Shown one piece after another: positions 7,227 to 24,589 of a DNA stretch of 64,000 nt; within the stretch, counting starts at the first letter, position 1, and each line of letters begins with the position of its first letter. The DNA comes from Pedobacter sp. MC2016-24. Its GTDB lineage: Bacteria > Bacteroidota > Bacteroidia > Sphingobacteriales > Sphingobacteriaceae. The DNA lies in the NCBI RefSeq assembly GCF_015223055.1, contig NZ_JADFBX010000006.1:124001-188000 (forward strand), given 5' to 3'. The notes under the pieces were generated by a model. That model saw only the letters and a list, made by a program, of their open reading frames with translations. It searched no databases and had not been told where the DNA came from. The position numbers and the translations under genes are program-made.

Positions 7227-8009
7227 ATGTTAAAGATTATGATCATTAAAGCAACACGTTACCGCCAACTCTTCTTTTTAGCACTTGCCATATGCTCCTC
7301 AAACCTGCTTTTTGCACAAGTGGATAACCAGGAATGGAAACAGGCCAGTGCCTCCAGTGAGGCTTACAGTAAAAGCCGAAGAAAAAATACCGTACCACCT
7401 TATGGTCTGGTAAAAGTAAAGGCTATGATTGCCGGTACAAAGTCATCAGGGGGCGACAATGACGTTTATTTCACCGTAATGAGTCCAAAAAATTATCAAA
7501 GTCTGTCGCTCCGGGAGAAATTTACTTACCACATGATCCATGCAGAAGTGGAGAGCCAGAATTGTGATGTTTCTGCGCCGATATTGGACGAAGATCTTAA
7601 GGTATTTGGTACTTTACCTGATGCATTTGATGAGAAAAGCTGGAGTGAGCGGCAGCTTAACTTTTTAATCAGTAACCGCGATTCTGTGCTTGCGCTGATT
7701 TCAGAGTCGGTAAACAGAAGTAAAAGGGTTGGACTGAATTATAAAATAGCGATTGAACACGTCAATGGATGGGAAATCATTCCGCTGCTGATCAGGACTT
7801 ATAAAATCGACCGCAAGGATCATGATATACTCACTGTCCTGATACAACTCATGAAGAAGAACGATTATCAGCCTTTTATGACTTCTGCTTCTTATGTGAA
7901 ACTTTATGGTGCCAAAAGCACAGACCGGAGCTTCATTGATTTTAACCAGGCCAATGAAGATTTGATCCTCAGCAGGGCAGAAGCTTTTTACAATGGCCGT
8001 AAAAAATAA
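7227..8009 (+). CDS. Secreted protein of unknown function
   Basis: The 260-residue protein has a signal peptide ending around LLFAQ (residues about 14-31); the ATG at 7239 would give a more typical signal than the one at 7227. The mature part has no motif that I can assign. It contains an FTYHMIHAE segment, one Cys (SQNCDV) and a helical C-terminal half with two internal hydrophobic helices. The stop overlaps the start region of the FGE-like gene by 17 bases, which implies translational coupling and a shared role. I considered a GldN-like motility protein because of the FGE/GldK-like partner, but conserved GldN features are not visible. Confidence 0.65.
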   Translation: MLKIMIIKATRYRQLFFLALAICSSNLLFAQVDNQEWKQASASSEAYSKSRRKNTVPPYGLVKVKAMIAGTKSSGGDNDVYFTVMSPKNYQSLSLREKFTYHMIHAEVESQNCDVSAPILDEDLKVFGTLPDAFDEKSWSERQLNFLISNRDSVLALISESVNRSKRVGLNYKIAIEHVNGWEIIPLLIRTYKIDRKDHDILTVLIQLMKKNDYQPFMTSASYVKLYGAKSTDRSFIDFNQANEDLILSRAEAFYNGRKK

Positions 8010-8841
8010 GTTGTTGTGCGTGTTGCTGTTGTATACATCGGGCCTTGCAGCCCGGCAGGCAAATCCCCGGTCCGACACTGGTTTTGTTCACATTCCTGCC
8101 GGGGTGTACTGGCTTGGTGGCCGGGAGCACCAGCTTAATCCATTGAGGAAAGTTGAAATAGCTGGTTTTGACCTGGCTGCCACCGAACTGACCAACCGTT
8201 TATTTGAAAGGTTTGTGCTGGCTACAAAATATACAACAGATGCCGAACGTTTCAAAAACGCAATGGTTTTTGAACCCGGACTTGCTGAGTTTCGCTGGTT
8301 GAGCGACAGTACCGCTTATTGGCGGTTCCCAAACGGGAAAAGCAGGGGTGGAATTGAAGCGAAAATGGATCATCCTGTAACCTGCATCAGTTATAAAGAT
8401 GCAGAAGCCTATTGCAAATGGGCAAAGGTAAGATTACCCACATTCGATGAATGGGAAATTGCTTCTCGTGCCGGTGCCAAAACGACTTATTTCTGGGGTG
8501 AAGATATGGAGCAGATTGGCCAGTATGCCAACATCTGGTATGGAGGGGATCATCTCAAGGCAGATTTGTCTGATGGCTATGTGTATACATCTCCGGTAGG
8601 GAGTTTTAAACCCAATGGTTTTGGGTTGTATGATGTTTACGGCAATGTATTTGAATTTTGTACTGGAGTTTTGAAAACAGATCCTAAAAATAGAAAGATT
8701 GCCCATGCCAGAGGTGGTTCCTGGTGGTGTAGTAACCATGCCTGCGGATTTTTTAATTCACTGGATATTGGCAGGGTAAATCCGCAGGCTTCTTTTAGCA
8801 ACCAGGGATTTAGAGTGGTAAAAATCCCTGTACAACATTAG
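7993..8841 (+). CDS. Formylglycine-generating enzyme (SUMF1/FGE-sulfatase fold), secreted, with both catalytic cysteines
   Basis: The 282-residue product has a signal peptide (about residues 1-21) and an FGE-sulfatase domain from about residue 30 to the end: FVHIPAGVYWLGG, ATELTNRLFERF, HPVTCISYKDAEAYCKWA, RLPTFDEWEIASRAG, PVGSFKPNGFGLYDVYGNVFEFC, and ARGGSWWCSNHACG...NQGFRVV. The pair Cys246/Cys251 has the same C-x4-C spacing and GGS context as the copper-binding catalytic pair of true aerobic formylglycine-generating enzymes, which convert a sulfatase cysteine to formylglycine. Many Bacteroidota proteins of this fold, such as GldK and GldJ, lack these cysteines, so retention argues for catalysis. 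No sulfatase gene is in the window. The start overlaps the upstream unknown gene by 17 bases, and the end converges on the MBL/rhodanese gene with 5 bases between. Confidence 0.82.
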   Translation: MAVKNKLLCVLLLYTSGLAARQANPRSDTGFVHIPAGVYWLGGREHQLNPLRKVEIAGFDLAATELTNRLFERFVLATKYTTDAERFKNAMVFEPGLAEFRWLSDSTAYWRFPNGKSRGGIEAKMDHPVTCISYKDAEAYCKWAKVRLPTFDEWEIASRAGAKTTYFWGEDMEQIGQYANIWYGGDHLKADLSDGYVYTSPVGSFKPNGFGLYDVYGNVFEFCTGVLKTDPKNRKIAHARGGSWWCSNHACGFFNSLDIGRVNPQASFSNQGFRVVKIPVQH

Positions 8842-8846
8842 CCAGG

Positions 8847-10307
8847 TCATTTTTTTTCTGTTGCGCCAGATGCTTCGTATTTAGTCACTGAAGGCCCCAA
8901 GTCAAAAACTTCCTGATTAGGCAATAGATTTTTGATGATGCTGCTGCCAGCTGCTGAACGATAACCTGAGGCACAATGTACCAAAATCGGTTTATTTGTG
9001 GGTAGCTCTGAAATGCGGTTGCTTAAATCCTGTAGGGGAATATTGATGGCGCGTTTAAAAATCGGATTTTCTTTTGCCTCTTTTTCTGTCCTGACATCAA
9101 TAATGGTATACTGGCTATTGCCGGGCTTGAATGTACTTAAGTCAAAAACATTAAATTGGGTACCTGTTAAGGCATTGTAAATAAAGACAGCCTTGATGTT
9201 TAACTCATAGCCTATTTTGGCTGCCTTTTTAATCAGTTGTGTTAAGTTCTGTTCATTTTCTGCAACCAGGTAAAATGTCAGATCAGGAGCAACTACACTA
9301 CCCAGCCAGGTTTCAAACCTTTCTGAAATTTGGATATTGATTGCACCATTAAGATAGGATTTTTTAAATACTGCCGCTGATCGGCCATCGACAATTAGTG
9401 AGCCGGCCTCGGGCTGAAAGTTGTTATTTAGCCTTTTAACTTTCTCAATGCTCAGGCCAACAGACGGAGCCCCTTTGATGTTCAGCTGTACGTCGTAAGG
9501 GAAATACTTGGGAATAAAGGGGAGATCGCCCAATAAAATTTTGATGAACTCGGCTTTGTTTTTTGTTTGAAAGGCATAATTATTTGATTTTTCGGTGCCT
9601 ATGGTTGAGCTGGCGGCATCACGGATTTGTTTACCACACAATGAGCCTGCACCATGGGCGGGATACACGATCACATCATCTGCTAATTTCCCAAATTGGT
9701 CATGTATCGTATGGTACATCATGTCGGCCAGTTTATATCTCTGGGCTTGTGTATTTTTCGAATATTCCCTTAAGTCCGGACGTCCTACATCCCCAATAAG
9801 CAGGGCATCGCCAGAAAATACAGCCATGTCTTTTCCTTCTTCCTGCAACAGGACAGCAATATGATCTGGAGCATGACCCGGTGTATATAAAGATTTCAAA
9901 GTGATTTTGTCTGATAACTTAATGGTTTTTCCTTCATCAAATGGAGAGAAAAGATAAGCTGGCTTAGTCAAGCTGCCGGTATATATACTCGCATTTGTAG
10001 TCCGGTGGATTTCCAGGTGAGCACTGACGAAATCTGCATGTGGATGTGTTTCAATCACACCAACAATTTCTGCCAGTTTCGATTTGGCAAAATCATAATA
10101 AATCTGCGGATCCCGTTGGGGATCAACCAGGATAATCTTACCCCCGGCCAGAATTGCGTAAGAAAAGTGTGCCAGACCAGGATCTTTGAATTGCTGGACA
10201 TGCCAGTTCTTTGACTGACCGGCAAATCCGCTGAATACATGAGCTGGCGTAAATAAAGCCAGGGTACTAAAGGAAGCCATATGGCTTATGAATCTTCTTC
10301 GTTTCAT
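8847..10307 (-). CDS. Tat-exported metallo-beta-lactamase/rhodanese protein, persulfide dioxygenase/CstB-like
   Basis: The 486-residue protein starts MKRRRFISHMASFSTLALF, a twin-arginine-type signal. Residues about 35-275 are an MBL-fold domain with metal-binding motifs THPHADFVSAH, TPGHAPDH, FSGDALLIGD and YPAHGAGSLCG, the pattern of MBL-rhodanese proteins and persulfide dioxygenases. Two rhodanese domains follow: the first (about 290-385) has no active-site Cys, and the second (about 390-480) has VHCASGYRS with Cys445 as the persulfide-carrying residue. Relatives such as CstB oxidise or transfer persulfide sulfur, here apparently outside the cytoplasm. It is the sixth and last gene of the SusCD-DoxX operon, 7 bases after the CxCP protein gene. 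Folds and motifs are clear; dioxygenase activity is inference. Confidence 0.85.
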   Translation of the reverse strand: MKRRRFISHMASFSTLALFTPAHVFSGFAGQSKNWHVQQFKDPGLAHFSYAILAGGKIILVDPQRDPQIYYDFAKSKLAEIVGVIETHPHADFVSAHLEIHRTTNASIYTGSLTKPAYLFSPFDEGKTIKLSDKITLKSLYTPGHAPDHIAVLLQEEGKDMAVFSGDALLIGDVGRPDLREYSKNTQAQRYKLADMMYHTIHDQFGKLADDVIVYPAHGAGSLCGKQIRDAASSTIGTEKSNNYAFQTKNKAEFIKILLGDLPFIPKYFPYDVQLNIKGAPSVGLSIEKVKRLNNNFQPEAGSLIVDGRSAAVFKKSYLNGAINIQISERFETWLGSVVAPDLTFYLVAENEQNLTQLIKKAAKIGYELNIKAVFIYNALTGTQFNVFDLSTFKPGNSQYTIIDVRTEKEAKENPIFKRAINIPLQDLSNRISELPTNKPILVHCASGYRSAAGSSIIKNLLPNQEVFDLGPSVTKYEASGATEKK

Positions 10308-10314
10308 GATGCAA

Positions 10315-11082
10315 TTATTGAATTACAAAATTAATCTTGTCTACACCCGTGTTTCCAGTTTTTCTGTCAATAGCGTAAATTGTAAGCTCATAATTGCCTG
10401 CCGATTTTATTTTGATTTTGCCCTCAAAAATATTGGTGTGGCCAGTTAAGCCAAGTGGGGCCGTTTGCAATAGTACACCTTCTTTTTTAACAATTGCCTG
10501 AATGTCTATGTCATCAGAATTCCATACTCCGGCTTTAGAAATGGGGCAACCACACATCAATGTAAGGCTGGCTCTGAATTTGAGCTCTGCATTTTTCAGG
10601 GTGTCTGACTTGATCACTTCATGTGTGTTTGGATACAATACATCAAGAATTAACCCTGGTATTTCGACCACGATCCCGTCGCCGGTGATGTCTTTACCGG
10701 GAATCAGCCAGGTTTGCGTACTGGCTTTAACTGCTGCATTTTTTCGGTTTACAGGTGCCAGAACTTCAATGTCTACAAAGGTAGGTTCGGCAATTGACAG
10801 GTTGGCCTCAAATTTTGCAGTCGTACTATCGGTTATGGATTGCCATCGGGACACTGGCTTTTTCATGATCAGATCTGTATTACCCGAGGCGCCGGATGTC
10901 AAACCTTTAGCCAGTATTTCACCGGTCAGGTGGTTTTTTACAATAATGTAGGCACCACCGATTCCGGTTCCAATAAATTTGGCGTCTTTGGCTTTTGCCC
11001 TGATGATTAGCCTGGTAGATTGTGCCTGGGCACCGGTCATACCAATGATCAGGAACAGATATGTTATTGTTTTCTTCAGCAT
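10315..11082 (-). CDS. Secreted protein with a Cys-Gly-Cys-Pro motif, unknown family
   Basis: The 255-residue protein has a signal peptide ending TGAQAQ (about residue 20). The mature part is almost wholly beta-rich, suggesting two or three Ig-like modules: an N-terminal module with transthyretin-like wording (GGAYIIVKNHLTGEILAKGLTS), a middle module, and a C-terminal one (GNYELTIYAIDRKTGNTGV). Between them sits LMCGCPIS with Cys177 and Cys179, the only cysteines, a CxC motif that could be redox-active, bind a metal such as copper, or carry sulfur. It sits between the second DoxX-like gene and the MBL/rhodanese gene in a tight operon, so a sulfur- or metal-handling role is a reasonable inference. 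I do not recognise the family. Confidence 0.7.
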   Translation of the reverse strand: MLKKTITYLFLIIGMTGAQAQSTRLIIRAKAKDAKFIGTGIGGAYIIVKNHLTGEILAKGLTSGASGNTDLIMKKPVSRWQSITDSTTAKFEANLSIAEPTFVDIEVLAPVNRKNAAVKASTQTWLIPGKDITGDGIVVEIPGLILDVLYPNTHEVIKSDTLKNAELKFRASLTLMCGCPISKAGVWNSDDIDIQAIVKKEGVLLQTAPLGLTGHTNIFEGKIKIKSAGNYELTIYAIDRKTGNTGVDKINFVIQ

Positions 11083-11113
11083 ATTGATTTTTTTAATGAT
11101 TCTGAGCTATTTT

Positions 11114-12589
11114 TTATCTGGATGTTTGTTGGTTTAACGCTGCCCGGTTGTATTTAATCGGATAATTTTTCTCTACTTTGTCGAGCACTACATAAATCGA
11201 ATCTTTGTTTTCATTAAGACCGGAGATGATGATTCTTGATTTGGTCGGTCTGCTATAGGTCCATACCAGCGAGTCTGCGGCTTGCTTTTTTAAATTTTCT
11301 TTTTTGAGTTTAGCCTTATCTGTTTTCTTGCCGCTATTGTCGTCGCCGTCTTGCAAAGCTGGTCTGTTTTTGTCTTTTAAAACCAATATCCCTTTAACGG
11401 TATCTGCTTGGTAATAAAGGAATTTACGTCCGCCCGCAATTCCCGCCAGTTCATAACTCCTGTCGATGTCTTTGGGATTTGGTGTGCCATTGGCCAATGA
11501 AATGGAAAAGGGTTTGTAGACTTTGTAAACCAGTGTACTCCATTTCTCAAGCACTACATTTTGCCAGCGTACAGAATCTATCGGAGAATAGGGGATTTCT
11601 TTATTGTTGAGTTTAAAAGTGCTGACGTTGTAATAGCCGGTTGCATTTGACAAGCCGGGATTTATAGGTTCTTTAAGTCGGCCATCGTGGTAGTGTACCT
11701 GGTATCTTAAAATACCAAACAGAATGGTAAAGGTGAATACCAGGATATATTTCGCCGAGTAAAAGGATCGCTTTTGCCATTTTGTTTTTAATGCAGGGTA
11801 ATAATAGCTGACTATTACATTTTCTCTTTTAATGAGTAGTTTCCATAAATTAGGAACATACTGAATCAGAAGGAATAGAGATAATAACACGAAATAAGCA
11901 CTGTAAACATGCACGCCGCCGTCATAAGCAAGGTTGGCATGGGCAATGTTATACAACACGCCTGCAACAAGTACCGCTCCTAAAGCCGTTGTTCCCCTGA
12001 AGAAGAGCAATATACCGGCAGCAATTTCTACGATACCCAATACAATTTCATACCATATGGACACCCCAACAATTTGCCAGTAAATTTTATAGGTATTGTA
12101 ATCACCAAAATTGGTATCCAGATTGGAGATGGAGGGATCGGGCATCTGCATCGGGTATAATTTTAGAAAACCAAAAGCAATAATGCCGAGGGCAATGCGA
12201 TAACGTACCAGCACACGAAGCCAGTAATATAGTTCATTGTACGACTTACGTTTACTTTTTAAGCTGATGAATGTCCATACGATGGCACCACCAAAAGCGA
12301 TACCCAACGCAATTCCCCAGGTAACGAAAGAGTAAAATCCCCATCTGCCACTTTCACCTGCTATGCTGTAAAAGTTTGTCCGATAGCCGGTAAGCGTATT
12401 CAGGAATGTAAATAAGCTATTGGATGACCATAGTTTCTGGTACCAGGATAATTGGTAAGGAACGATTAAAATGATGAAAAACAGAAAAGCAATGCGAAAC
12501 AGGAACTTTTCTAAGCTACTCCATTCGCCGCCGTTGTTTTGCGCAATGGAATCTGATGGGTTTGCTATGGGAAAGGTTGATAAAGTCAT
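11114..12589 (-). CDS. DoxX-like multi-spanning membrane protein with C-terminal extracytoplasmic domain (paralogue 2)
   Basis: I use the ATG at 12589 (MTLSTFPIANP); the longer frame to 12742 would run into the upstream gene. The 491-residue protein has about seven membrane segments in its first 290 residues, beginning FLFRIAFLFFIILIV, with the core RVLVRYRIALGIIAFGFLKLYP and EIVLGIVEIAAGILLFF typical of the DoxX/MauE-like four-helix unit. After the last helix comes a soluble domain of about 180 residues with TFKLNNKEIPYSPIDSVRWQNVVLEKWSTL, absent from ordinary DoxX proteins. DoxX relatives of the Acidianus thiosulfate:quinone oxidoreductase subunit DoxD move electrons from sulfur compounds to quinone. 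It is a clear paralogue of the gene directly upstream (same helix pattern and same tail). HTTM-like families are an alternative. Confidence 0.65.
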   Translation of the reverse strand: MTLSTFPIANPSDSIAQNNGGEWSSLEKFLFRIAFLFFIILIVPYQLSWYQKLWSSNSLFTFLNTLTGYRTNFYSIAGESGRWGFYSFVTWGIALGIAFGGAIVWTFISLKSKRKSYNELYYWLRVLVRYRIALGIIAFGFLKLYPMQMPDPSISNLDTNFGDYNTYKIYWQIVGVSIWYEIVLGIVEIAAGILLFFRGTTALGAVLVAGVLYNIAHANLAYDGGVHVYSAYFVLLSLFLLIQYVPNLWKLLIKRENVIVSYYYPALKTKWQKRSFYSAKYILVFTFTILFGILRYQVHYHDGRLKEPINPGLSNATGYYNVSTFKLNNKEIPYSPIDSVRWQNVVLEKWSTLVYKVYKPFSISLANGTPNPKDIDRSYELAGIAGGRKFLYYQADTVKGILVLKDKNRPALQDGDDNSGKKTDKAKLKKENLKKQAADSLVWTYSRPTKSRIIISGLNENKDSIYVVLDKVEKNYPIKYNRAALNQQTSR

Positions 12590-12638
12590 AATTCTTGTGG
12601 TGAAATGATGTTGATATTCAAGACGATAAATTTTAGAT

Positions 12639-13985
12639 TTAATAAACCTGCACGGGTTTTCTGCGTCCTTTATGCAAGAGGTAAGTCTTGTCCAGTTTAT
12701 CCAGTTCAATGTATAGACTATCTCCCTGCGCATTGCTGCCATTTAAAATAACAGTTGCCGGATCGGGCCGGGAGATTTTGAAGCGTTGTACATCCAGGGC
12801 CGCATTTTTATTGGATAGCGTGATGGTGCTGTCAATAAGGATATAACTGTAAAAGCTGCGGCCTCCATTGCCTTTAGACTCATAGGATCGCTGCTTATCT
12901 TCCTGGTAGGTTAAATCTGGCGAACTCAGGTCTATCGGAGCCGGATTATTGGTCTTCACACTCAATACGTTCCATTTTTCAAAAACAACGTCCTGCCATC
13001 TGCTGGTGTCTGTAAGCGAATAAGGAAGGACAGTTCCGTTGATTTTGAACGTTTTTACGTTGTATACGCCGTAGGCTTTGCTGAGGCCCGGTGTATCTGG
13101 ATATGGCCAGTTGCTTTTTTTGAAACTACTGAAGGTTAGCAGACTAAAGGAGATCACGAACAATCCGAAGAGTGCTTTCAAAGTATACCTGATTTTTTTA
13201 GCGTGTTTAAAATGGAGCTCGGGCCTGAAGTGATCTGCCAGGGCTACTTTTTCCTTAACCAGTAATTCATAAAGTCTTGGAGCGTCGTAAGCAAGAATGA
13301 AGCTGGCGGCCAGAAGCAGATACAGACTGTAAACATGCTCACCCAATTGATAGGCGAAATTGACAATTACAATGTTGATTAGAAATGCGAAGGCAATACC
13401 TGCACCAATAACCGCTGTTCGTCTGCATAGTAACAATAGTCCTGCAATAATTTCTATTCCTCCCAGAGTTTGTTCATAATAGGCGCGTGCTACACCAGTC
13501 GATAAATAATATATTTTCCAGGGTAGGAAGTCACCGTAGGCCGTGTGTAAGTCACTTAAGGTGGCATCAGGTACCTGTACCGGAAACAGCTTGATCACTC
13601 CATAACCAATCAGGCCTAATGCCAGTCTGTAGCGTACAATTACCCGTAACCAATAATACAATTGCTCGTATTGCTGTGGTTTGTGCCGGTCCAGGTTTGT
13701 CCATATTAAAGCGCCTATGATGGCAATGACCAATGCCAATCCCCATCCGGCATAGGCAGCAATGCCCCAATAAGCAATGTTAATAAGTCTGGGTACGTCA
13801 TTGGTAATTTGAAATAAATCCTGAAAGTGCAGGTTAAAAATATTTAAGGAGAACAACTTATCATAGTATTCCCAATGTAGTGGAATGGTGAGGAGCAGCA
13901 TCAGGATGAAAACGATTCGGAACAGGAACAGTTGCTGTTTGTTCCAGTCATATACTGTGGTCAGTGGTGTTGGTTCAGTCATCAC
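12639..13985 (-). CDS. DoxX-like multi-spanning membrane protein with C-terminal extracytoplasmic domain (paralogue 1)
   Basis: The 448-residue product shares order and wording with its downstream neighbour: FLFRIVFILMLLLTIPLHWEYYDKLFS, YYWLRVIVRYRLALGLIGYGVIKLFPVQVPD, GGIEIIAGLLLLCRR, LGEHVYSLYLLLA, then a soluble tail with TFKINGTVLPYSLTDTSRWQDVVFEKWNVLSVK. The two therefore arose by tandem duplication and may act as a heterodimer in the inner membrane. The DoxX assignment rests on the helix pattern and the R-x-LG...KL signature. It starts 31 bases after the SusD gene and ends 49 bases before its paralogue, so all are cotranscribed. Likely role, by inference: electron transfer from a sulfur or thiol substrate to quinone. 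Confidence 0.65.
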   Translation of the reverse strand: MMTEPTPLTTVYDWNKQQLFLFRIVFILMLLLTIPLHWEYYDKLFSLNIFNLHFQDLFQITNDVPRLINIAYWGIAAYAGWGLALVIAIIGALIWTNLDRHKPQQYEQLYYWLRVIVRYRLALGLIGYGVIKLFPVQVPDATLSDLHTAYGDFLPWKIYYLSTGVARAYYEQTLGGIEIIAGLLLLCRRTAVIGAGIAFAFLINIVIVNFAYQLGEHVYSLYLLLAASFILAYDAPRLYELLVKEKVALADHFRPELHFKHAKKIRYTLKALFGLFVISFSLLTFSSFKKSNWPYPDTPGLSKAYGVYNVKTFKINGTVLPYSLTDTSRWQDVVFEKWNVLSVKTNNPAPIDLSSPDLTYQEDKQRSYESKGNGGRSFYSYILIDSTITLSNKNAALDVQRFKISRPDPATVILNGSNAQGDSLYIELDKLDKTYLLHKGRRKPVQVY

Positions 13986-14016
13986 AATCTTTTTAAGATG
14001 AATAGCTTGTCCGGGA

Positions 14017-15378
14017 CTAGTTGTATCCCGGATTTTGTTTTAAGTTGGTATCTATCAATAGCTGCGCATAGGGAATAGGTAACAATAATTTATTATTGTC
14101 TGTGATGCCCAGTACAGTTCCTGCTCTTCCTGTTCTCACAAGGTCATACCAACGGTGATTTTCTAGCGCAAATTCAACTCGGTTTTCATTTTCTATGGCC
14201 AGTAAAAGCTGATCTTTTGTTTTTGCGTCAGTAATACCAAGTCCGGCTCTGAACCTTACGGCATTTAAATCATCTGCAGATCCTGTTAGGTTTTCCTTTT
14301 CTGCACGAGCTTCTGCACGGATGAGGTAGAGTTCAGCCAGGCGGATCAGAAAGGCTGGATCTGTACCTGCTGTTCTATAATAAAGATTACCATAATACCT
14401 GGTTACGCCAGCACTGGTTACTGTTTGTATGAGTGTACTTCTGTTTCCACCTATAGCAGGGCTGGTCAGTAAAGTTACAATGGTGCTGGTAGGCGTGATC
14501 CAGCCTACACCACCATTGGTGCTCGGTTGCCAGTTGTATCCCTGGCTATTGGTCACATTGGTATTGTAGTAAAGTTCAAATACCGATTCACGGCTTGCTG
14601 TTACATTGTTGGCAAAAAATGCATTGTATGGTGCAATCAATGCGTAATTGCTGTCTCCAATTAGTTTACTTGCGTAAAACTCTGCATTTTGCCAGTCTTT
14701 TTGATATAACGATAAGCGGGCGTGCAAGGCAAAAGCTGTCTTTTGTGTCGCCCGGATTCTGTTGGTGGTAGCAGGTAGCAAACCCTCGGCCAATGTCAGG
14801 TCACTCAATACCTGTGCATAGGTCTCGGTCAAAGTACTTCTGCTTTTTTTAGTCTGGTCTGTCGGACTACCGGTGGGTGTTAAAATGAGCTGTACGCCAC
14901 CCCAGGTTCTGGCCAGATCAAAATAGGCCAATGCCCTTAAAAAATAGGCTTCGCCAATCAGCTGATCTTTCAGTGCCTGATTAAAGGTAGCACTGACTGG
15001 CAGTCCCGGCACTTTGGCCAATACGTTGTTAGACCTGTTTATGACATTGTAAATGGCCCCCCAAGCTGTATTTAGCGCTGCCAGATCGGATACTACGGCG
15101 TGATTTGTTAGCTGCTGGTTGACTGTCTGCGATCCTACATATTGGATGTTATCGCCAGAAAAGAAACCCAGGGTCTGAAACGTATTGCCATAGTAGTCAT
15201 TTGATTCCAGTGTATTATAAATACCTCTTACAGCGGTTTGTGCAGAGTTTCCATCTACAATTGTTTGTTCATCAGAAACGGCATCCCTTGGTTTAACCTC
15301 AAGAAATTTTTTGCAGGAAAAAAGCGTGCTTCCCAGTAGAATAGATAAGCCAAATATGGTGATTTTTGAAGTTTTCAT
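14017..15378 (-). CDS. SusD/RagB family outer-membrane lipoprotein
   Basis: The 453-residue lipoprotein has a signal peptide ending in a lipobox (GSTLFSC, Cys at about residue 22) followed by KKFLEVKPRDAVSDEQ, the classic SusD opening. The helical body includes RGIYNTLESNDYYGN, YFLRALAYFDLARTWGGVQLIL and a C-terminal RLAELYLIRAEARAE...LENHRWYDLVRTGRA, all typical of SusD/RagB substrate-binding partners of SusC. It lies 28 bases after the SusC gene. This pair differs in sequence from the one at 2-2076. Its substrate is unknown, but the operon partners point to a sulfur-containing compound. Confidence 0.93.
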   Translation of the reverse strand: MKTSKITIFGLSILLGSTLFSCKKFLEVKPRDAVSDEQTIVDGNSAQTAVRGIYNTLESNDYYGNTFQTLGFFSGDNIQYVGSQTVNQQLTNHAVVSDLAALNTAWGAIYNVINRSNNVLAKVPGLPVSATFNQALKDQLIGEAYFLRALAYFDLARTWGGVQLILTPTGSPTDQTKKSRSTLTETYAQVLSDLTLAEGLLPATTNRIRATQKTAFALHARLSLYQKDWQNAEFYASKLIGDSNYALIAPYNAFFANNVTASRESVFELYYNTNVTNSQGYNWQPSTNGGVGWITPTSTIVTLLTSPAIGGNRSTLIQTVTSAGVTRYYGNLYYRTAGTDPAFLIRLAELYLIRAEARAEKENLTGSADDLNAVRFRAGLGITDAKTKDQLLLAIENENRVEFALENHRWYDLVRTGRAGTVLGITDNNKLLLPIPYAQLLIDTNLKQNPGYN

Positions 15379-15405
15379 CTGTTTATGAATTTTTTTAAGA
15401 AAAAA

Positions 15406-18400
15406 TTATAGCGTAACATTTAGTCCGAACTGGAACCCGCGGGGCTGGGGCGGTGTGCCAAATGAGCCCAGGCCCTGTGCGTTTGGATTGGAGGTGACGC
15501 TGGACTCCGGATCGCCCGTGTATTTAGTCCATAATTTGAGGTTAGAGCCTGCAAAATATACCCTTACATTGGTTAAATTCACCTTTGACACCAGCGATTG
15601 TGGCAGGCTATAGCCAAAGGTCAATAGCTTTAATCTTAAAAAAGAGGCATCTTCAAGGTACCTTGAACTTTGGTCTATGGTATAATTTGTACCCACCGAG
15701 GTAAGTCTGGGAATGTCTGTAATGTCACCTTTCTTTTGCCATCTTTCCAGGGTTTTGGTATCTACAGAACCGCTGCTTGGATTCCTTTCTCTGAAATAGC
15801 GGTTTAAATTCAAGGCCTTGTTACCATATTGGAACGTAAACAGAAAGCCTAAGTCAAATCGTTTGTAGCTCAGTGTGTTATTTAGTCCGCCAAATACGGT
15901 AGGATAAGCATTACCCAGAATTTGCCGGTTGCTGGCACTCACAGTGCCATTGGAGGCCTGTCCTTCAAAAACCGGGGCACCGGTATCCGGGTTTACCGAC
16001 AACTGGTTGTAAAGCCAGAAGGAGTTCATGGAATAACCTTCTTTCATGATTACCCAATCCCTGGTATACTGGGTAATTTGGGTCGGAAGCTTTTCGATCC
16101 GGTTTTTATTACCTGAAAAATTAAGACTGGTTTTCCAGGTAAAATCTTTGGTGATGATGTTAACGGTATTGATACCTACTTCAAATCCTTTATTACTCAT
16201 CTCACCTTCATTTGCCCAATAAGTTGAAAATCCGGTTGATGAGGCAATAGGCATTTGCAACAATAGCCCACTGGTATATTTACTGTAATAATCAGCTGTT
16301 ATTGAAATGCGGTCTTTTAGAAAGGCAACATCGATTCCGAAATCACTCTGAGTAGTTTTTTCCCACTTTAAGTTCGCGTTGCCAAGTTGAATAGGGCCAA
16401 TTCCTGGCAAGGCACTGCCCGGAACATCGGCGTAACTGCTGCCGCCTGTCCACAAGCCCTGGGAAGCAAAGTTGTTGATCCCGGCTTGATTTCCTGTACT
16501 GCCATATGATCCGCGAAGTTTCAACTCACTCAACCAGCTCACATCTTTAAGAAAAGATTCCTGGGATATTTTCCATCCTGCAGAGAATGCAGGAAAATAG
16601 CCCCAATGATTGTTTGTTCCAAATTTTGAAGAGCCATCAGCTCTCACACTGGCACTCAGATAGTATTTACTTTGGTAATTGTAGTCGGCCCTGCCAAAAA
16701 ATGAAGATAGGGTATATTTCGTCCAGGTTTGTCCGGATGTGCGTATGGAGGCCGAAGAAATGTTTTGGAAATTGTCATTGGCAAAACCTGAGCCTTCAGC
16801 AGAAGTCAACTTGTAAATATTGCTTTGCAGGGAATTACCAATCAGGAAGTTAAAATGGTGATCGTTAATGTTCTTTAGGTAAGTTAAAGTCTGCTCATTG
16901 GTCCAGGTGCTATTCTGCGTGATGGCCGAAGTCGCATTACCACCTACAGCTTTACCAATACTGGTTTGTGTATTCCAGTAAGCAGATTCATCAAAATGGT
17001 CGTAATCTAAACTGAAACTGGTTTTGAACTTTAGTCCGTCTATAATTTTAGCTTCTGCATAAATATTACCCAGATATCTTAAACTCACTGCGTTCACGTT
17101 GTAATTGTCAATAAGGATATAGACGTTATCAGCACCGCTAGAGGTACCATCATCAGCATATTTCGGGCTGTAAGTTGCAGTGCTCACAGCTGAATTCCAA
17201 AGACTCACCTGGGGTCCGTCTCCGGTTCTGGCCTGGTTTCTGAAGCTTCTGGATACGTTATTGTTCAATCCAAAAGTGACATAATTGCTTAGATTTTGGT
17301 CGAAATTGAATTTCAGATTTGCTCTTGAAAACGAAGGTACTTTAATGAGTGATTCTTGTGAAGTATAGCCTGCACCTACATAATATTTGGACTTTTCAGA
17401 TCCGCCCTGGATGGAAAGGTTATAATCCTGTACTGGCCCTTTTTGCAGAATGTCATTGATCCGGTCATAGTTTTGCTGTTCCTCTGGCAGCCCTTTACCA
17501 CCTTCTGATGCAGGTCTGAACGGCCTGTTTGCGAAAGTTTGGTTAAGCGCCGGGTTATCAATACCTGAATTAATCCAGTATTCGTTGGCTAAAGTAGCCA
17601 GGTCTGGTCCCGATGCTAATTTTGGTAGGGTAGAACGATCGGCCTGAACCCAGCCATTGGACAGATCGAACGAAATTTTCGGCTTGGTATTGTTGCTGCC
17701 ACGTTTGGTGGTAATCAATACCACACCATTGGCTCCTCTGGAACCATATATCGCCGTTGCTGAAGCGTCTTTTAATATTTCAATACTTTCTATATCAGCG
17801 GGATTGATGTCTGAAAGTGGCGAGGTTGTGCGCCCACCCAGGTTAGTGGTTTGCAAACTTGTATTGTTCAGAAATATACCGTCAACTACATACAAGGGGT
17901 CGCTGCTCGAGTTGATTGAAGTTGTTCCGCGTACCCGTACAAAGATGCTTTCACCAGGCACGCCAGAGTTTGTACTGATCTGTACGCCGGCAGCTTTACC
18001 CTGCAGCTGTGCATCAAAACTGGCCACAGGAATCTTGTTGACTTCAGCGGCATTGATCTTGGAGATGGATCCGGTTATATCACCCTTTTTCTGTGTTCCG
18101 TAACCTACGATCAGGACATCGCCCAATTGCGCTTCTGCAGATTTCAATTCAATGGTTATCGGGCTGCCAGACACCTGGGTTTCAAATTTTTCGTATCCGA
18201 TATAGCTCACTACAATGGTGTAAGGGAATTTTTGGCCGGTAATGAAGTTGAACTCACCATTGGTATTGGTGGCTACCACATGTGTGGTTCCGGTGATCTT
18301 AACCACAGCACCAGATATGGCCTGTTTGGTTTCGGCATCTATAACTTTACCAAATAGTTTGGAATTGATTAAGGGAACATTTGGGCGCTGAGAGAATGAG

Positions 18401-18498
18401 GTAAATGGCAATGAAATCAGCAGCAAAATGACAGCCGATTTTATGAAGTTGTATTTTTTTATTAGGCATACGTACTTCTGATGGAGAAAAATTCCCAT
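15406..18498 (-). CDS. SusC/RagA-type TonB-dependent outer-membrane transporter
   Basis: This is a full-length SusC of 1030 residues. A signal peptide covers about residues 17-37; a carboxypeptidase-D regulatory-like domain follows (about 45-125: GKVIDAETKQAISGAVVKITGT), then the TonB box/plug segment with GYGTQKKGDITGSIS, VRVRGTTSINSSSDPLYVVDGI and ATAIYGSRGANGVVLITTKRG, and a 22-strand barrel ending RGFQFGLNVTL. It lacks the N-terminal STN domain, so it does not look like an ECF/FecR signal transducer. It heads a six-gene operon with SusD, two DoxX-like proteins, the CxCP protein and the MBL/rhodanese protein. A leader of roughly 165 bases with a strong GC hairpin precedes it. A SusC importing material for sulfur-handling enzymes is unusual. 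Confidence 0.94.
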   Translation of the reverse strand: MGIFLHQKYVCLIKKYNFIKSAVILLLISLPFTSFSQRPNVPLINSKLFGKVIDAETKQAISGAVVKITGTTHVVATNTNGEFNFITGQKFPYTIVVSYIGYEKFETQVSGSPITIELKSAEAQLGDVLIVGYGTQKKGDITGSISKINAAEVNKIPVASFDAQLQGKAAGVQISTNSGVPGESIFVRVRGTTSINSSSDPLYVVDGIFLNNTSLQTTNLGGRTTSPLSDINPADIESIEILKDASATAIYGSRGANGVVLITTKRGSNNTKPKISFDLSNGWVQADRSTLPKLASGPDLATLANEYWINSGIDNPALNQTFANRPFRPASEGGKGLPEEQQNYDRINDILQKGPVQDYNLSIQGGSEKSKYYVGAGYTSQESLIKVPSFSRANLKFNFDQNLSNYVTFGLNNNVSRSFRNQARTGDGPQVSLWNSAVSTATYSPKYADDGTSSGADNVYILIDNYNVNAVSLRYLGNIYAEAKIIDGLKFKTSFSLDYDHFDESAYWNTQTSIGKAVGGNATSAITQNSTWTNEQTLTYLKNINDHHFNFLIGNSLQSNIYKLTSAEGSGFANDNFQNISSASIRTSGQTWTKYTLSSFFGRADYNYQSKYYLSASVRADGSSKFGTNNHWGYFPAFSAGWKISQESFLKDVSWLSELKLRGSYGSTGNQAGINNFASQGLWTGGSSYADVPGSALPGIGPIQLGNANLKWEKTTQSDFGIDVAFLKDRISITADYYSKYTSGLLLQMPIASSTGFSTYWANEGEMSNKGFEVGINTVNIITKDFTWKTSLNFSGNKNRIEKLPTQITQYTRDWVIMKEGYSMNSFWLYNQLSVNPDTGAPVFEGQASNGTVSASNRQILGNAYPTVFGGLNNTLSYKRFDLGFLFTFQYGNKALNLNRYFRERNPSSGSVDTKTLERWQKKGDITDIPRLTSVGTNYTIDQSSRYLEDASFLRLKLLTFGYSLPQSLVSKVNLTNVRVYFAGSNLKLWTKYTGDPESSVTSNPNAQGLGSFGTPPQPRGFQFGLNVTL

Positions 18499-22702: not shown

Positions 22703-24589
22703 TTACCAGGCGATGCCATAATCTTCACCATGGTTACTTGAACCACCCCAAAAACTTCCATGTTCCCAGTCGAAATAAATGGCATTGATTGGCCCGCTAG
22801 TACGTTCAGCAAAACTTAAGGAATAACCCATTTTCTTTAAGGCTTCTTTAGATGCTTCTGTAGTGCTGCGGTTTAACAAGAGCTGTCCAGGTTTGGGCAT
22901 CCTGTCCTCCGTTTTTGTACCTCCCAGCGAAAGCCATAACTGATTGGTATTGAAATTGGGTGCTTCAGAAGCTTGTTGCACATTCATCCCAAATTCTGTC
23001 ACATTTAAAAAAAACTGTAATAGGTTTTGGTCTTGTGTATCGCCTCCCTGTACTGCCGAAGCTAAAAACGGCTTGCCATCTTTCATTGCCAATGATGGGG
23101 ATAAGGTCACTCTTGGTCTTTTACCGGGCGCAACTACATTAAAAGGATTCAACGCTGAATCCAATACAAAACTTTGCATGCGCTGGCTCATACCAATACC
23201 GGTGTTCCCCGCAATACAGGCCGGAAGCCAGCCGCCGCTAGGTGTAACCGATACGACCCAGCCTTCTTTATCTGCAGCTTCTATGGCGGTTGTTCCAAGC
23301 CATAGCCTTTCCTGGTAAAGATCATCAGGGGAACGGTTGAGGCCCAGGTCATGTTTAGGAGCAAAATTTCGTTTGGTGGTATCCAATTCATAACCCCTGG
23401 TTTTGAGCAAATTTAAGTATGGATTCGTTCTTCCTTCAAATGGATAGGGGTTGCCGGGACCAATTGCTGGATTGTTTTGTTCTGTTGTGATTAATTTAGC
23501 ACGCTGCTTCGCATATTCCTTGCTCAATAAACCTTTGATTGGAGATTGTGGATCAAAAGCGGGATCGCCATAATAAAAGTCACGGTCTGCAAAGGAGAGG
23601 TTCATGGCCTGGTAAAGGGTGTGAATATATTTGGGTGTGTTATAACCCATACTTTTCAGGTCGAAGTTTTCCAGGATATTCAGGGCCTGGAGCAGTGCGG
23701 GCCCTTGCGTCCATTGCTGAAGTTTGTATACATCAATTCCTTTATAGTTCACGGTAAGTGGTTCTTCCGCTACTGGTTTCCATTTTGCCAGATCTTCCAT
23801 GGTAATCAGACCACCCTGTTCCTTGCTGCCACGCACAAATTCTTCGGCAATATCACCCTTGTAAAACCGATCATATGCAGCCATTAAAGCCTGTTTTCTA
23901 TTTTGCCCTTGTTTAATCGCTTTCTTTTCGGCTTCCACCATTTTTTGAAGCGTCAACAACAGATCTTTCTGAACAAAGATTTCTCCGGCTTCAGGTGCTT
24001 CCCTTTGTGCTCCCGGATGTGTAAGCAGTACATTTTTACTATAAGGCCATTGTTTGAGCTGTGCTTTGCTACGTTCTATGGTGTTTGCTGCCTGTGCTTC
24101 AATGGGATAACCCGCTGCCATTTCCATGGCTGGTGCAAGTATCTCTTCCAGGCTCATGGTTCCGTAGTTGAGCAGCATATAGATGAGTCCGCCAGGTGTA
24201 CCAGGTGTTGTAGCTGCAAGCGGGCCATATTCTGGTGGGAAATTGTAACCTTTACTTTTAAAAAATGCAACGGTAGCACCTGTGGGCGCAACACCCATCG
24301 CATTAATTGCAATGACTTTCTTCGTTTTTGGATTGTAAATGAGGGCCTGCGTTTCGCCGCCCCAACTTAAAGTATCCCACATGGTGCAGGTTGCAGCTAA
24401 CATACCACAAGCTGCATCAACAGCATTTCCGCCTTTTTGGAAGATCATAGCGCCTGCTGTGGCAGCTAAAGGTTTTCCTGTGATGGCTACCCAATTGCGG
24501 CCATGTAATACTGGCTTTTGAGTTTGCTGAGCTTGCACATTGCCGTTAACAATGACAACGATAAGCCATATCGTTAGTATACTTTTCAT
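22703..24589 (-). CDS. ggt: Gamma-glutamyltransferase (gamma-glutamyltranspeptidase)
   Basis: The 628-residue proenzyme has a signal peptide (about residues 1-20) and the N-terminal nucleophile hydrolase layout: a large-subunit start with KPLAATAGAMIFQKGGNAVDAACGMLAATCTMWD, and an autocleavage site before Thr433 (LGTT), which would become the catalytic nucleophile of the small subunit. It would transfer or hydrolyse the gamma-glutamyl group of glutathione or other gamma-glutamyl compounds in the periplasm. The usual GSPGG loop is replaced here by AVQGGDTQDQ, as in some acylase-like members, so substrate preference may differ. Its start overlaps the stop of the GNAT gene by 4 bases, which places it at the end of the metal-transport operon. 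Confidence 0.88.
   Translation of the reverse strand: MKSILTIWLIVVIVNGNVQAQQTQKPVLHGRNWVAITGKPLAATAGAMIFQKGGNAVDAACGMLAATCTMWDTLSWGGETQALIYNPKTKKVIAINAMGVAPTGATVAFFKSKGYNFPPEYGPLAATTPGTPGGLIYMLLNYGTMSLEEILAPAMEMAAGYPIEAQAANTIERSKAQLKQWPYSKNVLLTHPGAQREAPEAGEIFVQKDLLLTLQKMVEAEKKAIKQGQNRKQALMAAYDRFYKGDIAEEFVRGSKEQGGLITMEDLAKWKPVAEEPLTVNYKGIDVYKLQQWTQGPALLQALNILENFDLKSMGYNTPKYIHTLYQAMNLSFADRDFYYGDPAFDPQSPIKGLLSKEYAKQRAKLITTEQNNPAIGPGNPYPFEGRTNPYLNLLKTRGYELDTTKRNFAPKHDLGLNRSPDDLYQERLWLGTTAIEAADKEGWVVSVTPSGGWLPACIAGNTGIGMSQRMQSFVLDSALNPFNVVAPGKRPRVTLSPSLAMKDGKPFLASAVQGGDTQDQNLLQFFLNVTEFGMNVQQASEAPNFNTNQLWLSLGGTKTEDRMPKPGQLLLNRSTTEASKEALKKMGYSLSFAERTSGPINAIYFDWEHGSFWGGSSNHGEDYGIAW

Follow-up and report, generated by a model that had tools for sequence, protein, structure and literature searches.

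What does a SusC-SusD pair bring into the cell when the genes behind it encode two unclassified membrane proteins and a sulfur enzyme? The question is raised by a locus of Pedobacter sp. MC2016-24, which lies within the window analyzed here, a continuous stretch of 64,000 nucleotides of that organism's DNA. Six consecutive genes make up the locus (Table 1), in the order and at the coordinates proposed by an initial annotation of the window. The intergenic gaps from SusC to the MBL/rhodanese gene measure 27, 31, 49, 31, and 7 bases; the annotation had the last four right and gave 28 for the first.

Table 1. Genes of the operon, in order of transcription; positions count from the first letter of the window.
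Feature	Position	Strand	Basis
SusC/RagA-type TonB-dependent outer-membrane transporter, 1030 aa	15406..18498	minus	TIGR04056, 818 bits (cut-off 368)
SusD-type surface lipoprotein, 453 aa	14017..15378	minus	PF14322, E 1.6e-25; PF07980, E 1.5e-23
DOXA, membrane protein of seven helices ending in a lipocalin-like barrel, predicted periplasmic, 448 aa	12639..13985	minus	model
DOXB, paralogue of DOXA, 491 aa	11114..12589	minus	40% identity to DOXA
CGCP, secreted-type protein of two Ig-like domains, CGC motif invariant, 255 aa	10315..11082	minus	sequence and model
CstB-type MBL / pseudo-rhodanese / rhodanese protein with a putative export signal, 486 aa	8847..10307	minus	match to 3tp9 and 3r2u

The first two genes are adjacent in one operon and match SusC and SusD models above the curated cut-offs, as expected of a SusCD/RagAB transport pair, and SusD carries a lipobox-like SCKKF near its N-terminus. 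As in the SusCD/RagAB PULs, the transporter and the lipoprotein head the operon. Unlike in PULs, the gene runs described here and below are without an identified glycoside hydrolase or polysaccharide lyase, and their cargo consists of redox and sulfur genes (with a peptidase at 10 of 65 loci); model searches of the six window genes found no glycan- or peptide-degrading enzyme. DOXA starts with GTG at 13985, with ATG at 13982 as a possible alternative, and a promoter and terminator scan gave no sites in excess of those in shuffled sequence. Nearby, a secreted protein with an FGE-sulfatase (SUMF1-like) domain is encoded on the opposite strand (7993-8841, plus), its end lying 5 bases from that of the operon, and a gamma-glutamyltransferase gene (22703-24589, minus) lies downstream of genes for a GNAT protein and an outer-membrane efflux protein.

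To place the operon among its relatives, one-per-species genomes were scanned with DOXA, which gave 66 loci for ORF calling and clustering, and gene content was tallied over contiguous same-strand runs at 65 loci, including the window and a second locus of its own genome. All 65 carry DOX genes by construction, and SusC and SusD share the run at 54 and 55 of them, respectively. A CrtO-like FAD oxidoreductase follows in frequency (45/65), then a YeiH-family transporter (31/65), a SoxD-like cytochrome (20/65), a SoxC-like dehydrogenase (17/65), a secreted S51/cyanophycinase-type peptidase (10/65), and the CGC and CstB-type proteins (8/65 each). The core that the loci conserve is DOXA and DOXB side by side, and across relatives in Bacteroidota the median gaps between neighbors in SusC-SusD-DOXA-DOXB are 15, 24, and 22 bases. 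Three held-out genomes, taken from another collection and picked by DOX alone, show the layouts SusC-SusD-(peptidase)-DOX-DOX-FAD, SusC-SusD-DOX-DOX-FAD-YeiH, and SusC-SusD-DOX-DOX-SoxD-SoxC-FAD-YeiH. The second locus of the window's own genome (L018, contig C17: 73000-92000) combines a SusCD pair with three tandem DOX genes, followed by an FAD oxidoreductase gene and a YeiH-family gene.

Because the order recurs in dozens of genera, it is far beyond chance. The six-gene operon is real and occurs beyond this strain, with SusC-SusD-DOXA-DOXB as the unit conserved across Bacteroidota and the CGC and CstB-type genes joining it at the eight loci. SusCD pairs are numerous in the genomes of such bacteria, and an ordinary SusCD nutrient locus might simply have fortuitous neighbors; we find this highly improbable, given that the short gaps persist across genera and that the linked SusC proteins form a clade of their own, in which 54 of the 57 DOX-linked sequences group with only three others (support 0.995). 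In an even sample of 395 Bacteroidota genomes, a DOX relative of some kind was found in 79 and strong full-length pair matches in only five, so the paired DOX system is widespread but uncommon in the phylum.

The last gene of the window operon has a product that is recognized by rhodanese and metallo-beta-lactamase models and aligns in full length (residues 31-459) with 3tp9 (4e-50) and with 3r2u (2e-42), the latter being Staphylococcus aureus CstB. It has the order of MBL, pseudo-rhodanese, and rhodanese domains seen in CstB and in the ETHE1/PDO-rhodanese fusions, the motifs of these proteins, metal-binding ones included (HxHADF, SGDxLxxGDVGRPDL, HGAGSxCGK, and VHCxSGxRS, the last with the cysteine of the C-terminal rhodanese), and two cysteines in the catalytic regions. 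These two, C224 and C445, are its only cysteines; both align with cysteines of 3r2u, presumably C201 and C408 of CstB. Since the middle domain has no cysteine, it is best described from its sequence as a pseudo-rhodanese, like that of CstB. The protein had been annotated as a Tat-exported MBL with two rhodaneses, of which the MBL stands and the N-terminus (MKRRRFI) looks Tat-like by eye, but the first rhodanese is this cysteine-free pseudo-domain. The orthologue at locus L087 has a Sec-like signal in place of the Tat-like one. In its probable export signal and its place in a SusCD operon the window protein differs from CstB. The extracytoplasmic setting originally proposed is supported. Three more MBL-rhodanese proteins are encoded in the window's genome (L010, L011, and L012), the closest with 50% identity; its tblastn match holds one TAG stop.

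The two membrane proteins had been called DoxX-like, which can stand for no more than a resemblance at the level of the fold: DOX proteins stay below the cut-off of every Pfam and NCBIfam model; a Pfam search of 54 family members gave no convincing match, only scattered weak ones, mostly to MauE, DoxX_2, and DoxX. The same search rules out membership in DoxD (PF04173) or DoxA (PF07680), with zero matches among the 54 members at E up to 1. An hhalign comparison was weak (P 0.0067 over 71 columns) and bears on DoxX rather than DoxD, as its DoxD comparison set consisted mostly of short DoxX-type proteins. An HTTM identity is doubtful, with no PF05090 match among the 54 members and a weak hhalign comparison (P 0.043). 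Nor does the alignment of the family contain an invariant cysteine; its invariant residues are E178, R188, N209, Y212, Q137, T148, and D152. The earlier view of the pair as DoxX/DoxD relatives that reduce quinone with thiosulfate thus lacks support in that form: since DOX is not DoxD, DoxA, or HTTM by any curated model, a thiosulfate:quinone activity could be proposed only by analogy and not from membership.

In the AlphaFold model of DOXA (pLDDT 90.7), a beta domain comes after seven long helices. Helices 107-236 resemble NACHO/TMEM35A (Z 8.5 over 111 residues, 2.5 A) and residues 300-433 resemble lipocalin-like barrels (Z 7-8.6), and Foldseek added weak matches to the vitamin K carboxylase GGCX (E 0.04). 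Because unrelated models can give similar Z, we treat these fold matches as a lead and not as proof. The tail is thus predicted to be a lipocalin-like barrel and not DoxA. Positive charges favor loops 2, 4, and 6, which would put the barrel, along with conserved loop 134-169, on the periplasmic side. Compared with the DoxDA thiosulfate:quinone oxidoreductase, the DOX proteins share membrane helices, which may be DoxX-superfamily-like, and the presence of a second domain; they differ in having seven helices, two paralogues, a lipocalin-like barrel, and no sequence match to DoxD or DoxA. In Acidithiobacillus, DoxDA adjoins rhodanese genes (PMC6335251).

Single DOX genes occur as well, and at such loci sulfur genes are mostly absent; an ArsR-type persulfide regulator adjoining them was looked for and not found. 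At three loci of one genus in the window's own family (L244, L247, and L249), only a few genes separate a single DOX relative and a CstB-like gene of the cytoplasmic type. In Acidobacteriota, single DOX relatives again have the FAD oxidoreductase as a neighbor, with neither SusCD nor sulfur genes (L204, L214, and L215).

Between the DOX pair and the persulfide enzyme lies the gene for CGCP, whose only two cysteines fall within CGCP, just as first noted. The family motif is MxCGC[PTV]...GG[LMV]W[DN]. The model (pLDDT 76, pTM 0.54) has two Ig-like domains with the CGC in a poorly predicted loop, and no sequence match was found in the PDB. The C-terminal domain (142-255) is similar to Ig-like domains and to Mo-co-dimerisation domains (Z 9-12), in the latter case, by model comparison, that of sulfite dehydrogenases. 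Kinship with SoxY or SoxZ was considered and set aside, as the matches are generic Ig-like ones with SoxYZ not among them and the two-cysteine motif is internal, as against C-terminal in SoxY. That the protein carries sulfane sulfur or a metal is a guess in keeping with its position between DOXB and the persulfide enzyme. The family is found in 19 of the 395 Bacteroidota genomes, mostly alone, and this wider distribution means that it has uses beyond the operon; no conserved partner with a sulfur role was seen elsewhere in Bacteroidota. CGC-motif secreted proteins that stand alone, with no shared sulfur partner, make up loci L158-L175.

The relatives carry other sulfur modules in the same position. 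One is a SoxC/SoxD-like pair of the sulfite or sulfane dehydrogenase kind. Against the SoxC equivalog model (cut-off 420) the SoxC-like dehydrogenase reaches 458 bits, and its SoxD-like partner is a cytochrome c with a single CxxCH (one heme). A profile search found a SoxC-type enzyme in 22 of 48 genomes; judged by position only, 16 of the 22 lie inside the DOX locus (14 on an identified ORF), and for another two the distance to the locus end is at most 2 kb. What the relatives share with the Sox system (SoxCD) is a SoxC-type enzyme and a cytochrome c, here beside the DOX genes. Unlike in the Sox system, SoxY (PF13501) is not found together with SoxC/D, being absent from all 48 genomes searched with a model that gives matches in another class, and the window genome lacks SoxC. 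Such SoxC/SoxD-like pairs in Bacteroidota genomes without SoxY include L045, L049, L053, and others (clusters K2 and K3). With no SoxY alongside, the SoxC-type enzyme may act on free sulfite. The second module, the YeiH-family gene, is a PF03601 member and in this respect like YeiH, to which Salmonella chiefly owes its sulfite resistance (PMC12880088); the PF03601 proteins of the relatives form a divergent subgroup below the TIGR00698 cut-off, and the window operon has none.

The two sets of modules are distributed as if one replaced the other. Chitinophaga costaii A37T2 and Flavihumibacter petaseus are examples of relatives with the CGC/CstB form, and strains of Runella and Pedobacter of those with the SoxC/YeiH form. 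SoxC/D-like and/or YeiH modules are found at none of the eight CGC/CstB loci and at 41 of the 57 others (Fisher p 1.5e-4), a value that overstates the contrast because the eight loci form one DOX clade (support 0.979), which may reflect a single evolutionary replacement rather than eight. In Cupriavidus, a persulfide dioxygenase compensates for the loss of SoxCD (PMC9959259). As relatives carry SoxC/D-like, YeiH, or CstB-type modules, the sulfur theme rests on three independent families, and the sulfur connection first drawn from the window has been strengthened both by these added genes and by the alignment with CstB. At L044, a locus from Acidobacteriota that lacks SusCD, the genes DOX-DOX-FAD-redoxin lie next to one for a tri-rhodanese and one for a CDO-like cupin just below the Pfam cut-off.

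We suggest that SusCD-fed periplasmic sulfur oxidation with interchangeable terminal modules is the best reading of these observations. From the operon and its conservation, the domain architecture, the key residues, and the alternative modules, all read from sequence, we infer the substrate, the electron transfer, the role of CGCP, and every reaction that follows. SusCD would bring a sulfur-bearing compound into the periplasm. The DOXA/DOXB pair, anchored in the inner membrane with its barrels in the periplasm, would act as an oxidoreductase or relay that probably passes electrons to quinone, and the cytoplasmic FAD oxidoreductase encoded alongside in most relatives would work with the pair. 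Sulfane sulfur would be released and handed over, perhaps by way of the CGC cysteines, to the putatively exported CstB-type enzyme for oxidation of persulfide to sulfite and thiosulfate. Most relatives would have a substitute for this final step: the SoxC/SoxD-like dehydrogenase pair, YeiH to let sulfite out, or the two together. That the operon takes up and oxidizes a sulfur compound, for which we favor a sulfane-sulfur carrier oxidized by DOX with periplasmic completion by the CstB-type enzyme, has in our estimate about an even chance of being right. Counting against it are the CGC family members that stand alone, the CrtO group of the FAD partner, and the single-DOX loci mostly without sulfur genes, as well as the lack of an invariant DOX cysteine and of any DoxD, DoxA, or DoxX model above cut-off, and the possibility that the SoxC-type enzyme, with no SoxY, works on free sulfite.

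The main rival is a substrate that releases sulfite, such as a sulfonate. Free sulfite is suggested both by YeiH and by a SoxC-type enzyme that has no SoxY, while the CDO-like cupin at the acidobacterial locus is a hint of sulfur amino acids, as is an aminotransferase in L072; SusCD could then import an organosulfonate or sulfur amino acid derivative that the FAD protein and DOX break down, the sulfite being oxidized by SoxC/D-like proteins, exported by YeiH, or turned into thiosulfate by the CstB-type rhodanese. We think this rather unlikely, as a persulfide dioxygenase requires sulfane sulfur, not sulfite, and none of the known desulfonating enzymes was seen in the loci. After it comes non-sulfur chemistry, which we consider improbable: DOX and the FAD protein would carry out redox reactions on a lipophilic or peptide compound from SusCD, with the sulfur genes protecting against by-product sulfite or reactive sulfur. 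The FAD partner fits this, belonging to the CrtO/phytoene-desaturase group, which is not known to have a sulfur role, as do the lipocalin-like DOX barrel, the secreted cyanophycinase-type peptidase, and the acidobacterial DOX-FAD pairs without sulfur genes; the tight recurrence of three unrelated sulfur modules at the loci argues against it.

Returning to sulfur oxidation, a bolder version, possible though doubtful at present, is that this is a Bacteroidota locus dedicated to sulfur use, where SusCD supplies a DoxX-like pair that faces the periplasm and forms a new family of sulfur:quinone oxidoreductases, with interchangeable terminal modules (exported CstB-type enzyme and CGC carrier, or SoxC/D without SoxYZ plus YeiH), separate from Sox, Dsr, sHdr, and DoxDA-TetH. 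Searches of the open-access PMC literature found no description that links SusCD with DoxX-like or sulfur-oxidation genes and nothing comparable, in line with the initial impression that the grouping is unusual. The parts are of known kinds; their combination, the barrel-bearing DOX pair, and SoxC/D without SoxY at a SusCD locus appear to be new. The locus thereby suggests an undescribed route by which Bacteroidota import and oxidize a sulfur compound. SusCD systems are known for the import of glycans and peptides, and a conserved sulfur-oxidation branch, if true, would widen the range of their cargo. Common Bacteroidota of soil, plants, and freshwater, seldom counted among the sulfur oxidizers, would then gain a testable route of sulfur turnover, and SoxC-type enzymes without SoxYZ, together with an unclassified DoxX-like membrane family, would gain a concrete setting.
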